This document shows, in pieces, positions 24,592 to 44,122 of a DNA stretch of 64,000 bases (the stretch's first letter is position 1; the number at the start of each line of letters is the position of its first letter). The stretch covers positions 372,001-436,000 of the forward strand of contig NZ_SMJU01000001.1 of the NCBI RefSeq assembly GCF_004348825.1. The letters run 5' to 3'. Made by a program: the position numbers and the translations under genes. This DNA comes from Arundinibacter roseus. Lineage in GTDB: Bacteria; Bacteroidota; Bacteroidia; Cytophagales; Spirosomataceae. Under the pieces are notes generated by a model, which ran no database searches, was not told the origin of the DNA, and saw only the letters and a program-made list of their open reading frames with translations.

Positions 24592-26376
24592 ATGACTAAT
24601 CAATTAGAAGTAAGCAATCTCCTTAATCCCATCATTGAAACATACAAAGCAATTAGTGATGAAATGAAAGCCCTATTTGAGTTTGGGCTTGATGATTACC
24701 TTAATACACAAACCGAAAAATATTATTTTACATATACCTTCATTCATCGTGGCGAAAAAGTAAGGTTTAATGATATTTATTTTCCTGTGAAATCTAAGTA
24801 CAAAAATCTTATAACTTCATTCGAAAATATTGAAAGTATATTCGAAGAATATAATAAAATCACGATTATTGGCTCGGCAGGAAGCGGAAAGACTACATTA
24901 GTAAGACATATTTTCCTTAACGCTTTAAAAACTTCTAAAAAAATACCAGTTTTAATCGAATTAAGGAATCTTAATGAATTTAATGGGCAATTTGAAGATT
25001 TACTTATAAATAAAATCCTCAAAACCAAAGTAATGCCTAGTAAACTAATATTTAATCGTGCCATTGAAAGTGGAAAATTCTTGTTTTTATTTGATGGTTA
25101 TGATGAAATATATTCCGACAAAAAACAAGAAATAAATAGACAAATAGAACTGTTTGTGGATTCCTATCCTAAAAATTATTTCTTAATATCAACTAGACCA
25201 GGCAGTGGGATAGAAAATTTTCCGAGGTTTAATGATTTTAGGATGCAAAACTTGAATGATAAGGATGTTTCTGGATTTATAGAAAAAATTGTTGATAATA
25301 ACGAGAGGAAACATCGTATAAGAAAAAATGCATTTGATCCTCAAAATAGTAATTATATACAATATTTACGAAATCCACTTCTTCTTTCAATGTTTATAAT
25401 GGCATTTGAAAATCATCCAGAAATTCCAAATCGTAAAAGTTCATTTTACAGAAATGTATTCGACACTTTATATTCAAAGCATGATGGTATCACAAAAAAT
25501 AGTTTTCCAAGGGAAAAAAAGACTAAACTACAAAGAGATGAATTTGAAGAAATTTTATCTATATTTTCATATTTAACACTGTATGAAGGAAAATATTCAT
25601 TTACATTAGAATACCTGTCAGATTTAATTTTAAAAATACAAAAAATAACAGACCTTTCTTTTACAGTAGAAAATTTGATTTACGATCTACATACTTCCAT
25701 TTCAATATTGATTTTGGATGGATTTGAATATTATTTTCCACATAAATCCATCCAAGAATACTTTGCTGCATTGTTTATTAGTAAACTACAAATAAATAAA
25801 AAACAAAAAGCTTATGATAATCTATCAAAAGCTTTAGAATATTCTAGTAACGATTTTAGTTTTAATTTTTGGAGCTTATGTAAAGAACTAGATGAAACAA
25901 CATTCATTTCTTATTATTTGACACCTAAGTTAAATGATATTTATCTTAAGTTGGAAGGGAAAATAGGAAAAGAACTTTTAGAAGCATATTTTAATATAAT
26001 AGGACCATCATTAATGATTGTAAGTCCTGATAATAAACATATCTCAGAATTTAAAATATATAGATTTGCGTCATTTAACAATTCAATTCTTGAATTTTGT
26101 AAAGCTTACAACTATGATGAAATTTGGTCTTTTCCAACAATTGCAAATATTAATGAAGAGTTACTCAATATTCAGAAAAAAAGAAAATTCACTAATTCAG
26201 GAACGGAAGATTTTGGCGAATTTATGTACGATAAAGAAGTAATTGATCTCTTTATTAAACATGGGTTTAATGAAAAAGTTGAAAAAATAAAAAATCAAAT
26301 TATCGAAATAATTAATAAATGGGAGGCAGATGTAAATAGGAAAAATAGTTTTATTGATATACTACTTGATGAGTAA
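24592..26376 (+). CDS. NACHT-type STAND NTPase, candidate anti-phage defence protein
   Basis: A 594-aa protein with Walker A GSAGSGKTTL (about residues 94-103), Walker B FLFLFDGYDEI (163-173), a sensor-1-like FLISTRPG (197-204) and, after the NTPase, the helical-domain motif FPHKSIQEYFAAL typical of NACHT proteins. STAND NTPases of this class act as sensors that oligomerise on a phage signal; bacterial NACHT proteins are established defence proteins. The N-terminal 70 residues and the C-terminal 180 residues show no known effector or repeat domain. Strongly AT-rich compared with flanking phage genes, and preceded by a small membrane-associated gene. Probably expressed in the lysogen. Confidence 0.8.
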   Translation: MTNQLEVSNLLNPIIETYKAISDEMKALFEFGLDDYLNTQTEKYYFTYTFIHRGEKVRFNDIYFPVKSKYKNLITSFENIESIFEEYNKITIIGSAGSGKTTLVRHIFLNALKTSKKIPVLIELRNLNEFNGQFEDLLINKILKTKVMPSKLIFNRAIESGKFLFLFDGYDEIYSDKKQEINRQIELFVDSYPKNYFLISTRPGSGIENFPRFNDFRMQNLNDKDVSGFIEKIVDNNERKHRIRKNAFDPQNSNYIQYLRNPLLLSMFIMAFENHPEIPNRKSSFYRNVFDTLYSKHDGITKNSFPREKKTKLQRDEFEEILSIFSYLTLYEGKYSFTLEYLSDLILKIQKITDLSFTVENLIYDLHTSISILILDGFEYYFPHKSIQEYFAALFISKLQINKKQKAYDNLSKALEYSSNDFSFNFWSLCKELDETTFISYYLTPKLNDIYLKLEGKIGKELLEAYFNIIGPSLMIVSPDNKHISEFKIYRFASFNNSILEFCKAYNYDEIWSFPTIANINEELLNIQKKRKFTNSGTEDFGEFMYDKEVIDLFIKHGFNEKVEKIKNQIIEIINKWEADVNRKNSFIDILLDE

Positions 26377-30431: not shown

Positions 30432-31310
30432 ATGCTTCACCGATTCCTATCCGGCCATTGGGCCATTGAACCTCGCCTTCATGACCGCCTGGCTCCACTC
30501 ATCCTGAGTGGCCGGGTGGACATCAATTCTGCTAAGCTTGCCCGAGAGCGCCGCTCGCCCCGATTTGAAACGGTCGTATTGGATACTCCAAACAAGAATG
30601 CCGTCGGCAGTGGATCTGCCTATAAATACCTACCAAAGATGGGGACGAAGGAAGGAATTGTACCGATTATTCCCATCATTGGTACCATGAGCCGGTATGG
30701 TGACCTGTGCAGCTATGGCACTGAAGACATTTCTCAGTGGATTTTGGAAGCAGAGAATGATCGCTCCGTCGTAGGAATGGTTCTGGAAATCGACAGTGGT
30801 GGCGGTGAAGTCAACGGCACCGAACTATTAGCAGAAGTTGTGCGGCAATGCTCCAAACCCGTAGTGGCTTATGTGACAGGAATGGCCGCAAGTGCTGCCT
30901 ACTGGGTGGCAAGTGCGACCCGCTGGATTGTGATGGAAAGTGCCACTGCCTCGGAGGTCGGCTCTATCGGAGTTTTGAGTGTCCACGTGGACATGACAAA
31001 AGCCCTGGAAAAACAGGGAATGCAGGTCACCATCATCCGTGCCGAAGGCTCCGAAAACAAGGCTCTTTACAACTCCGTCGAACCAATTGATGAAAAGCTC
31101 GTGGCCTCTCTACGAGCTGAAATGAAGCCTATCCGGGAAGCTTTTGAAGCTTCCGTCCGCTCTGGACGCCCCAACATCAGCGAGAAAGTTTTTGAAAGCA
31201 AAGGAGGGATGTATCCTGCTTCCAAGGCCATACGCCTGGGCATGGCTGATGAAATTGGCTTTATGGGAAATGCGGTCGCAAAGGTGGTAAAACTGCAGCG
31301 GCCTGATTGA
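30432..31310 (+). CDS. S49-type (SppA-like) prohead protease
   Basis: A 292-aa serine peptidase. The family signatures are present: LEIDSGGGEVNG, the nucleophile region MAASAAYWVASA and SEVGSIGVLSVHVDM. In phages, S49 peptidases mature the capsid by cutting the scaffold. It is followed directly by an acidic scaffold-like gene and the capsid gene, which fixes this role. The start MLHRFLSGHW at 30432 follows the second terminator-like hairpin. Confidence 0.88.
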   Translation: MLHRFLSGHWAIEPRLHDRLAPLILSGRVDINSAKLARERRSPRFETVVLDTPNKNAVGSGSAYKYLPKMGTKEGIVPIIPIIGTMSRYGDLCSYGTEDISQWILEAENDRSVVGMVLEIDSGGGEVNGTELLAEVVRQCSKPVVAYVTGMAASAAYWVASATRWIVMESATASEVGSIGVLSVHVDMTKALEKQGMQVTIIRAEGSENKALYNSVEPIDEKLVASLRAEMKPIREAFEASVRSGRPNISEKVFESKGGMYPASKAIRLGMADEIGFMGNAVAKVVKLQRPD

Positions 31311-34088: not shown

Positions 34089-34121
34089 AATAGCCTAACC
34101 GCCCGGTTGGGCTATTTTTTT
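34089..34121 (+). terminator. Terminator of the capsid operon
   Basis: AATAGCC and AACCG (34089-34101, one base between them) pair with CGGTT and GGCTATT (34104-34116), then T5. It ends the S49-to-33678 operon just upstream of the structured RNA. Confidence 0.8.
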
Positions 34122-34159
34122 GTCCATTGGATGCGAAGGCCGATTGGCTATATTTGTGA

Positions 34160-34306
34160 TGCTAAAAGTTAAGTCTTATTGGAATACAGGAGCGGGCGTG
34201 CTGGAATTAGGGCATGGCCGGTAAGCGTGCGGTTGAAAGTACCGCATGGCTCTTGTATTCCATTTTTTGGAGACTTGACTTTTAGCAGCGACTTACCGGC
34301 TTTTTT
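34160..34306 (+). ncRNA. Nested, pseudoknotted structured RNA candidate
   Basis: P1: 34160-34176 with 34271-34287, 17 bp including one G-T pair. P2 nested inside: GGAATACAGGAGC (34181-34193) with GCTCTTGTATTCC (34249-34261), 13 bp including one G-T. P3: a hairpin 34226-34233 / 34241-34248 abutting P2. P4: 34197-34201 / 34213-34217. A 9-nt sequence GCCGGTAAG (34217-34225) is exactly complementary to CTTACCGGC (34292-34300) downstream of P1, which forms a pseudoknot with a T6 run at 34301-34306. The pairing is far too extensive and layered for chance. No reading frame crosses it convincingly. Function unknown. Confidence 0.7.
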
Positions 34307-34315
34307 CTCTTCCCC

Positions 34316-34543
34316 ATGCTGCCTGCTCCCAATGGTTTCCTGGATCTGCGTACGTACCTGCATCAGCGCAAAATAGATGCAGCCTGGATCAGAACCGTTC
34401 TGGATAAATACCTCAAAGAATATGCGAACCAACAGACCGATTGTGATCTGGATCTGGATCACCAGGTATGGGAATACCGCCGGGTGATTGTGGATTTCAA
34501 ACAATTGATTGAAGATGACAACCAACCAGATCAGGCAGACTGA
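34316..34543 (+). CDS. Small hypothetical phage protein, 75 aa
   Basis: An acidic helical protein beginning MLPAPNGFLDLRTYLHQRK. It starts 10 nt after the structured RNA, so its translation may depend on that fold. Its 3' end overlaps the next gene by 29 nt. No domain is recognised. Confidence 0.5.
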   Translation: MLPAPNGFLDLRTYLHQRKIDAAWIRTVLDKYLKEYANQQTDCDLDLDHQVWEYRRVIVDFKQLIEDDNQPDQAD

Positions 34544-35144
34544 GGCAGCCATTAAACTCCTGGAATTGCAGGTTAAAGCCGGTCGGGCCAGAGTAGAGCA
34601 GCTGGAGCCGCTCCAAAAGCAGCTTTCTGAGCTGAAAAAAGCTGATAAGCAGCTAACTCCTCCACCCCCGCCCAAAGCAGCTACACCTACAAAAACAGCC
34701 AAAAAACCTAACGCCTACGCTGAAAAGCAGGCAGAGCTAAGCAAGCAAGCCAACGAGCTGCGAAAGGAGCAGGCCAAGTTGAGCAATCTGCTGCACAAGG
34801 TGCCTCCTCATCAGGACTGCCCGGAGCTGACCCAGCGGATTGTGGATCTGCAAGTTCAGATTGAAGACCTATGGGATGAAAAGAAGTTTATAGAACGCAA
34901 TGGACTCGAACCAGCTGGAGAGTTTAGAGCGCTGCCCGAAAAGAAAGCCCGGCCCCTTGATGATGTACAACATAAGGCCGTACTGACCGTCGAGCTGCAA
35001 CGACTCCGGGAAAAGCGCTCCAAGCTGACTCGAAAGCTCGAAAACCCGAAGGCAGCTGACAGCAAGAAAGCTGAATGGAGCACCGAGCTGGCCAAGATTT
35101 CCAGCCAAATTGAGCAGGCCACCGCTGAGCGATATGTGCTTTAA
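34515..35144 (+). CDS. Coiled-coil phage protein, 209 aa
   Basis: A helical protein with heptad patterns (ARVEQLEPLQKQLSELKKA and later stretches) interrupted by a Pro/Lys-rich linker (PPPPPKAATPTKTAKKP). The start MTTNQIRQTEAAIK at 34515 is an ATG; a TTG two codons earlier is possible. It is probably a scaffold or connector-like protein, but no family is recognised. ParB-like follows 34 nt downstream. Confidence 0.5.
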   Translation: MTTNQIRQTEAAIKLLELQVKAGRARVEQLEPLQKQLSELKKADKQLTPPPPPKAATPTKTAKKPNAYAEKQAELSKQANELRKEQAKLSNLLHKVPPHQDCPELTQRIVDLQVQIEDLWDEKKFIERNGLEPAGEFRALPEKKARPLDDVQHKAVLTVELQRLREKRSKLTRKLENPKAADSKKAEWSTELAKISSQIEQATAERYVL

Positions 35145-36554: not shown

Positions 36555-37295
36555 ATGAAAGATATAAAGATAGTAATTCCCAGCCACAAGCGCTGGAATC
36601 GGGTAAGAACTACCAGCGCTGTGTATGGTGCTGCCTTGTGCGTTGAAGAAAGTCAAGCAGATATGTACCGGAAGTGCAATCCCGGCATTGAGATCATTAC
36701 CCATCCGGATACTGTCATAGGGCTGACCCGCAAGCGGGAATGGATGATCAGGAATTTGGGGGATGTCTTTATGCTGGATGATGATATTGATCATTTGAGC
36801 CGTATCTACACTGAAAAAGGTGAAGACTCGGTGGTTGATCCGGACGTGGCGCATGATCTAATCCAGATGACCGCGCACGCAGCACGGCAGGCCGGAGCGT
36901 TTTTGTTTGGGTTTAGCTCTTCTCCCACACCAATTTCTTACAATAGTCTCAACCCTGTTCAACTCAGCGGGTACGTCACCGGCTGCGCCCACGGCGTATT
37001 AGCCGAATCGAAGCTCTGGTATAATGGCGATATTCATTGCAACGAGGATTACTGGATTTCTCTCTTAAATGCGCACCATCACCGGCTGATCTGGAAAGAT
37101 ACTCGCTTCTATTGGGCACAAAAAGATACCTTTACGAATCGCGGTGGGCTGGCTGAATTCCGGAATGTGGAAAATGAGGAGAAAGATTTCCTACTGCTTC
37201 GAAAGGTGTTCGGAAATGTGGTGGAGTTGCGTAAGTCTACGGGAAAGAGTAATTTAAGGCACCCGTTTCAGAAAAGTTTGAGATTGCCATATTGA
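36555..37295 (+). CDS. GT-A glycosyltransferase-like protein, candidate DNA-base glycosyltransferase
   Basis: A 246-aa protein with the N-terminal nucleotide-sugar fold IKIVIPSHKRWNRVRTTS and the metal-binding DXD equivalent FMLDDDIDHL (residues about 73-82). The layout resembles the TET/JBP-associated glycosyltransferases of phages, which glycosylate modified bases and are found next to ParB-like genes, as here. No TET/JBP hydroxylase is visible in this window, so the acceptor could be another modified base or something unrelated. Confidence 0.55.
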   Translation: MKDIKIVIPSHKRWNRVRTTSAVYGAALCVEESQADMYRKCNPGIEIITHPDTVIGLTRKREWMIRNLGDVFMLDDDIDHLSRIYTEKGEDSVVDPDVAHDLIQMTAHAARQAGAFLFGFSSSPTPISYNSLNPVQLSGYVTGCAHGVLAESKLWYNGDIHCNEDYWISLLNAHHHRLIWKDTRFYWAQKDTFTNRGGLAEFRNVENEEKDFLLLRKVFGNVVELRKSTGKSNLRHPFQKSLRLPY

Positions 37296-43579: not shown

Positions 43580-44122
43580 ATGGACAGACTAGAAATATCA
43601 CCATCCAGCGAGCTTAAACCCGAAAAGGGCACCCACCGGATGGATAAATTCAAAGATCATCTAATTGCTAAAACTCCATTAGGCCCCAGAGATCAGGACT
43701 ACTTTGAAAAAATGAAGAAAGCCTGGTCCTGGGCTACCAAGATGTTTTCACCGCAAAAGGTGGTGGAAATGCTGCATACTGAATACGGACACGAGAAAAC
43801 TCACGCCTACCAGATCCTGCGGGATAGCTACGCCCTTTGGGGAGATGCGTATGAATTAGACAAACGAGGTGCGGCCAAGGTTCTGGTCGAGTCCGCCTAC
43901 GTGGCTTTACAAATCGCTGTTCGGGAGAAAAATGGCGAGCTGATCCTGAAAGCCGTTAAGGAGCTGCGCGAATTACAGCAAATTGACAAGGTAGAATCTG
44001 CCATTCCACCCGAAGCAGCCATGCCTGCCGGTACGCGGGTTTATGTCTTTAATGCTCCAGTAAATGTTGGTGAGCAGCAGGCAGGAAAGGAGGTGGAAGA
44101 TGGCTCATTCAGCTTCGAATAA
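43580..44122 (+). CDS. Terminase small subunit
   Basis: A 180-aa protein directly upstream of the large subunit, overlapping its start by 23 nt. The N-terminal half has a helix-turn-helix-like segment (SPQKVVEMLHTEYGHEKTHAYQILRDSYALW), as small terminases bind the packaging site. The rest is helical, for oligomerisation. Assignment by position, size and helix-turn-helix character. Confidence 0.7.
   Translation: MDRLEISPSSELKPEKGTHRMDKFKDHLIAKTPLGPRDQDYFEKMKKAWSWATKMFSPQKVVEMLHTEYGHEKTHAYQILRDSYALWGDAYELDKRGAAKVLVESAYVALQIAVREKNGELILKAVKELRELQQIDKVESAIPPEAAMPAGTRVYVFNAPVNVGEQQAGKEVEDGSFSFE

Follow-up and report, generated by a model that had tools for sequence, protein, structure and literature searches.

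Architecture of the locus

The stretch of Arundinibacter roseus DNA analysed here (64,000 nucleotides; hereafter the window) carries a candidate structured RNA at positions 34160-34306, which the original prediction, made from the letters of the window, placed between genes of a phage capsid region. The prophage context is given by a head maturation protease gene at 30432 and a terminase large subunit gene at 44064. The parts of the locus described in this and the next section are on the forward strand. The upstream gene cluster ends in an intrinsic terminator (34089-34121; AATAGCC..GGGCTAT followed by T7), and a predicted promoter follows (34127-34156), composed of TTG at 34127-34129, a 19-nt spacer and TATATTTG at 34149-34156; TAnnTTTG is the -7 box of the Bacteroidota promoter consensus. 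The RNA occupies the first ~150 bases of the phage message, between this promoter and the start codon of a gene (34316-34543) for a 75-amino-acid (75-aa) phage protein predicted to fold as three helices (mean pLDDT 80). The next gene of the unit (34509-35144) encodes a coiled-coil-like protein that is kept in the four closest homologous loci.

The arrangement upstream of the RNA recurs in its homologues. The TAnnTTTG box adjoins the 5' end of the RNA, which starts 0-4 nt downstream, in 46 of 54 loci, and TTG is spaced 18-19 nt from the box in 14 homologues; a T-rich, terminator-like hairpin usually lies 5' of the promoter in the phage homologues. Since the promoter box abuts the RNA, the outermost helix, P1, would be made from the bases transcribed first.

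A stable hairpin with six T downstream, as seen in the window, could also be read as a transcription terminator or a stabiliser of the mRNA end with no regulatory role. The T-run is not conserved, being TTATAT in two homologous loci (L002 and L003), so that no terminator is defined by it, and a G+C hairpin joined to a conserved U-run was not found at this position, where P1 and the six T are parted by a conserved linker and a pseudoknot strand. The separate terminator at 34089-34121 already lies upstream, as the original prediction had pointed out in setting aside a usual terminator, and neither the pseudoknot nor the start-codon covariation described below would serve termination. We consider this explanation extremely improbable.

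Fold and pseudoknot of the window RNA

The pairings proposed from the window are all present in the sequence. The outer stem (34160-34176/34271-34287) has 17 of 17 pairs and the inner stem (34181-34193/34249-34261) 13 of 13, each with one G-U; the two inner hairpins lie at 34194-34219 and 34226-34248, and the pseudoknot (34217-34225/34292-34300) consists of nine Watson-Crick pairs out of nine. Structure prediction extends the two stems slightly, to 18 bp (34160-34177/34270-34287) and 14 bp (34180-34193/34249-34262). The 5' strand of P1 (34160-34177; segment 1), beginning a few nucleotides from the predicted transcription start, pairs with its 3' strand (34270-34287; segment 2), which elsewhere in the family is also able to pair with the start-codon region. 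Within P1, the strands of P2 (34180-34193 and 34249-34262) enclose P3 (34194-34219), whose apical loop is kept in the closest homologues and whose 3' side runs into the 5' strand of the pseudoknot, and P4 (34226-34248), which is capped by the seven-base loop UGAAAGU (34234-34240). The pseudoknot joins GCCGGTAAG (34217-34225) to its complement CTTACCGGC (34292-34300), which ends 15 nt 5' of the start codon, and a conserved GCAGCGAC (34285-34292) forms the end of P1 and the linker to the pseudoknot; a motif of this kind is present in 68 of the 74 RNAs gathered.

The predicted folding energy, computed like all energies here without the pseudoknot, was -72 kcal/mol compared to -44.5 +/- 3.8 in shuffled sequences (z = -7.2; none of 200 shuffles was as good). 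Among 2000 dinucleotide shuffles, 8 gave by chance a tail perfectly complementary to the body over 9 nt.

A family of homologous RNAs in the Bacteroidia

We gathered 74 homologous RNAs from ~11 families of one class, the Bacteroidia, by sampling ~1,900 genomes, partly under strict filters. A second copy in the host genome is 75% identical to that of the window, and close copies are present in two other genomes of the same family. A covariance model built from four sequences recovered 12 diverged copies, in loci fetched via an upstream phage protein, as well as five in the host genome. These five (G000; C9, C11, two on C39, and C42) each lie 3' of a homologue of one phage protein and probably represent five related prophages or their remnants. 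A third model detected the RNA in 13 of the 375 class genomes searched and again in a sample of one further family; outside the class, sampling of the phylum yielded no match, at limited sensitivity. Pattern scans of IMG/VR returned mostly chance 16-mers, two loci from the same or a near-identical genome and, with the third pattern, four further real matches, and no relatives were found among INPHARED phages, whether searched with DNA or with the upstream protein. The original prediction knew of no matching family, and the window and its homologues, scanned against Rfam release 15 at gathering and permissive thresholds, matched none; permissive matches nearby were chance-level hairpins. No description of this RNA was found in a literature search that covered few subscription papers. 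With no match found, the family appears to be absent from Rfam and previously unlisted.

The covariation that the original prediction named as support for P1, P2 and the pseudoknot was found for all three and for P4, in sets of 19, 42 and 56 aligned homologues. Pairs changed on both sides numbered 27 of 35 with 19 sequences, 32 of 34 with 56 sequences and 32 of 34 in the cleaned set of 42; all 11 scored pairs of P1 and all nine of P2 vary on both sides. In the 42-sequence set, 94% of cells were paired compared to 63% after shuffling and 35-43% after a slide of one to three columns. The pseudoknot was left out of every model structure used for alignment, and the P3 columns overlap its 5' strand; it nevertheless covaries, appearing as GCCGGTAAG, GCCGGTTGG, GCCGATTGG, GTCGGCTGG, GCCGACAGG, GGAGAGG, GGAAAGG and GGGGAAG, each with its complement. 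In an alignment-free comparison the pseudoknot match was 6.98 bp, as against 4.43 once partners were shuffled (5.02 in the best of 200 shuffles). Even among the four closest loci both strands of the pseudoknot change together (GTGAG/CTCAC in L003), and P1 is composed of different bases. The motif UGNRAG is present in the P4 loop (L4) of all 74 RNAs; the family consensus UGNRAGN fits the T-loop pattern, UNNRANN, and we describe the loop as T-loop-like. The comparative data thus show a real RNA class with a conserved, covarying core and a pseudoknot, sited in the 5' leader between putative promoter and start codon; in the loci measured, its modelled 3' end is 1-28 nt from the start codon (1-18 nt in the phage group and 20-28 nt in genus g32, probably Dyadobacter).

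Two departures from the common architecture were seen. Loci L139-L143 hold a near-copy of the 3' strand of the pseudoknot (CCAACCGGC or close) within the 5' strand of P3, and P3 and the pseudoknot therefore compete there. In a close homologue (L004 of G003) the 3' strand of P2 is lost and P1 and the pseudoknot are kept, perhaps in a decaying or rearranged copy. A reading frame that runs in frame through some g32 copies of the RNA was rejected as a coding sequence, since in other copies the open frame starts at or just before the start of the downstream open reading frame (ORF), and the element stands as a non-coding structured RNA.

At paired positions G-U occurs 67 times and A-C seven times, an excess that a model-guided alignment slightly favours and that indicates an RNA of this strand as the functional molecule. 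The same counts bear on the proposal that the element acts as single-stranded DNA, as a recombination hairpin or the end of a mobile cassette. Such an origin would suit the clusters of multiple, partly decayed copies in g32 islands and the direct repetition of the RNA's 5' end at the ORF start, but it does not account for the G-U excess, for a promoter kept at the edge of the element, or for its place inside a conserved, syntenic gene cluster in the phages of the window group. We regard a DNA-level element as improbable.

The start codon as a second partner of P1

In genus g32 the ORF typically starts AUGCAAACnUC, and the reverse complement of the P1 3' strand is GCAAACnUC, the variable base shifting in both. 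Across 26 g32 loci, complementarity between the start codon region and the P1 3' strand averaged 10.5 bp compared to 6.8 bp when shuffled (best of 500 shuffles, 7.96). Sixteen class-wide loci, with several unrelated genes, gave 9.25 bp versus 5.6 bp (best of 1000 shuffles, 7.06; random ATGs, 4.5), and 20 class-wide loci gave 8.0 versus 4.8 (best of 300 shuffles, 5.8). This complementarity is often longer than P1 itself and extends over 19 nt in L362, L365 and L404, where it exceeds the match of the P1 5' strand. The pairing survives synonymous changes (ACG/ACT/ACA), and the first residues of the proteins vary together with P1 (MRTQKN/MRQQKN in L400 and L427; MLTQ/MTTQ in L395 and L409). In most g32 loci the two states differ by no more than ~5 kcal/mol in predicted energy, and a few loci strongly favour the helix over the AUG. 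Comparison of the loci thus shows an alternative helix over the start codon that is evolutionarily maintained in most lineages outside the phage group of the window, and mutually exclusive start-codon pairing, as in riboswitches, is present as a pairing potential in g32 and most class-wide loci. This second partner of P1, the promoter box at 34149-34156, the conserved seven-base L4 loop and the class-wide family are features beyond those originally predicted.

These data also bear on whether the RNA acts in cis. The original prediction had left the choice between a switch for the gene at 34316 and a trans-acting phage RNA of a packaging or defence-blocking type, and an independent small RNA, such as a component of a phage ribonucleoprotein, that lies by chance just 5' of a gene would be in keeping with a promoter of its own, with a 5' end that forms P1 and with the T-run after the pseudoknot in the window. 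A start codon follows the RNA after 1-28 nt, and the RNA has no conserved terminator on its 3' side and elsewhere precedes unrelated, non-structural genes. In those other lineages the coding start covaries with the P1 3' strand of its own leader better than with that of other copies, which a trans-acting RNA would not need. The packaging and defence-blocking roles found no support: the Rfam scan was negative for phage packaging RNA (phi29 pRNA), and the RNA also precedes non-packaging genes. We consider a trans-acting RNA unlikely, and the cis-acting switch is the part of the proposal that best fits the data.

Genes downstream of the RNA

The four closest copies lie in one shared phage gene cluster, with three upstream genes and, downstream, the small protein and the coiled-coil-like protein. 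In 21 aligned loci of the phage group, one divergent protein family follows the RNA. The 75-aa protein of the window had no Pfam match and only weak PHROG matches, and its predicted fold had no significant match in the PDB.

In genus g32 the RNA stands alone 5' of a 95-aa ORF. The 95-aa protein is found in 28 of 48 g32 genomes, in one to eight copies each, many of them decayed; it is predicted to be a helical hairpin with a disordered N-terminus and shares no detectable similarity with the phage protein (hhalign probability ~0.1%). The islands that carry the RNA and the 95-aa ORF include toxin-antitoxin and defence genes, such as one for a SIR2-pAgo protein. Units of RNA and 95-aa ORF in L335, L344 and L380-L387 lie scattered, and partly decayed, through islands with many such genes, and the units may mark or help the exchange of island cassettes.

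Class-wide, the RNA is followed by genes for a Rha antirepressor, ORF6N-like and RadC-like proteins, SymE toxins (L402 and L404), proteins of unknown function and further proteins of the 95-aa type. SymE toxins were considered as a general client and rejected, the RNA being present in one of 14 SymE-like loci sampled (L421, the same locus as L404). Separately, a SymE-like toxin gene (L416; G000:C42:49312-49419) lies ~5 kb 3' of the second RNA copy and is itself without the leader.

The constant pairing of the phage-group RNA with its small helical protein could point to an autoregulatory operator, in which the leader binds the encoded protein or another phage protein in the manner of ribosomal-protein leaders. 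The same core precedes unrelated proteins (the 95-aa and phage proteins, SymE, Rha and the RadC-like protein), and the encoded protein therefore cannot be the common ligand; the same diversity argues that what the RNAs have in common is a role in controlling initiation. We treat the operator as a variant of the explanation preferred below, outside the confidence given to that explanation, and as slightly less likely even than a trans-acting RNA; a third protein, from phage or host, could still be bound.

A putative translational switch and its relation to known systems

The explanation that we prefer, at a probability of roughly 0.7 and on comparative sequence evidence, is that the RNA serves a small transcript as its 5' leader and controls translation as a riboswitch-like switch. 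The transcript would start at the TATATTTG promoter, P1 forming from the first RNA bases, and the RNA would fold as P1-P2-(P3,P4) with its T-loop-like L4, the strand before the start codon pairing with the base of P3; covariation shows this structure. In most lineages outside the phage group of the window, the P1 3' strand would pair either with the 5' end of the RNA, leaving the AUG free, or with the start region, hiding it. Covariation shows the alternative pairing; that the AUG helix blocks initiation and that P1 releases it is what we infer. Translation would be turned on once the folded domain is stabilised, whether through a ligand, a protein or the kinetics of folding, and some cue would presumably select the state of the leader. 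In the phage subgroup of the window, the pseudoknot strand, lying within the ribosome footprint 15 nt 5' of the AUG, may itself gate initiation at 34316.

Several observations weigh against this explanation. In the window subgroup, pairing between the AUG and the P1 3' strand is absent (4.3 bp compared to 4.4 bp shuffled), and proximity of the pseudoknot to the AUG is all that was seen of start-codon pairing there; position is what suggests a cis role in this subgroup, and the direction of any effect would be a guess. The annotated start is also without such pairing in a few class-wide loci (L403, L424, L428 and L326). The downstream genes are diverse, largely of unknown function and share no common pathway, and the folding energies leave the pseudoknot out.

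The cobalamin and preQ1 classes are examples of translational riboswitches that have a pseudoknot and a P1 that switches. The family resembles them in a compact, conserved core closed by P1, a P1 3' strand shared with a helix at the start region, a pseudoknot and a T-loop-like loop; it differs in that its genes belong to mobile elements and to no common pathway, and in that P1 uses the extreme 5' end of the transcript. By analogy it would work like a translational riboswitch, a likeness of mechanism for which we do not claim class membership. In erm-type translational attenuators, pairing of segments 1:2 alternates with 2:3, and segment 3 holds the start codon. The logic is the same here, but no conserved leader peptide was seen, and a structured, pseudoknotted domain of ~120 nt lies between segments 1 and 2. 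Mu-gpT-DE (RF03012) is likewise a structured RNA and takes its name from a phage head gene; the window and its homologues scored below its threshold. The symE/symR system is a type I toxin-antitoxin with an antisense RNA, and two members of our class lead toxins of the SymE family (PF08845), for which control would use a cis leader, not an antisense RNA. The tandem RNA repeats of type III toxin-antitoxin systems were absent, with a single RNA unit per ORF in the loci inspected, and no reverse transcriptase of the kind found in a retron was present among the neighbours scanned.

A broader reading, which we hold tentatively and at somewhat less than even odds, is that the family is an undescribed class of sensing leaders in mobile elements of the Bacteroidia. 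Phages and islands would have spread a single aptamer-like core, and on a shared cue, for instance a metabolite or a protein that signals induction or infection, this core would set when toxins, antirepressors, small proteins of the islands and proteins encoded in the phage structural region are translated. Attachment of the RNA to phage, antirepressor and toxin genes suggests one RNA sensor common to mobile elements, and identifying the signal would reveal what these elements listen to. The family adds a well-supported RNA class to a phylum in which control of translation initiation is poorly understood, and the alternative helix at the start codon makes the putative switch directly testable.

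Other genes of the window

Two further genes were observed in the window. At 24592-26376, a NACHT NTPase with a SNaCT8 C-terminal domain, NLR-like in organisation, is a possible anti-phage defence gene near the prophage structural genes. At 36555-37295, a TET-associated glycosyltransferase (PF20691) suggests modified bases in the phage DNA.
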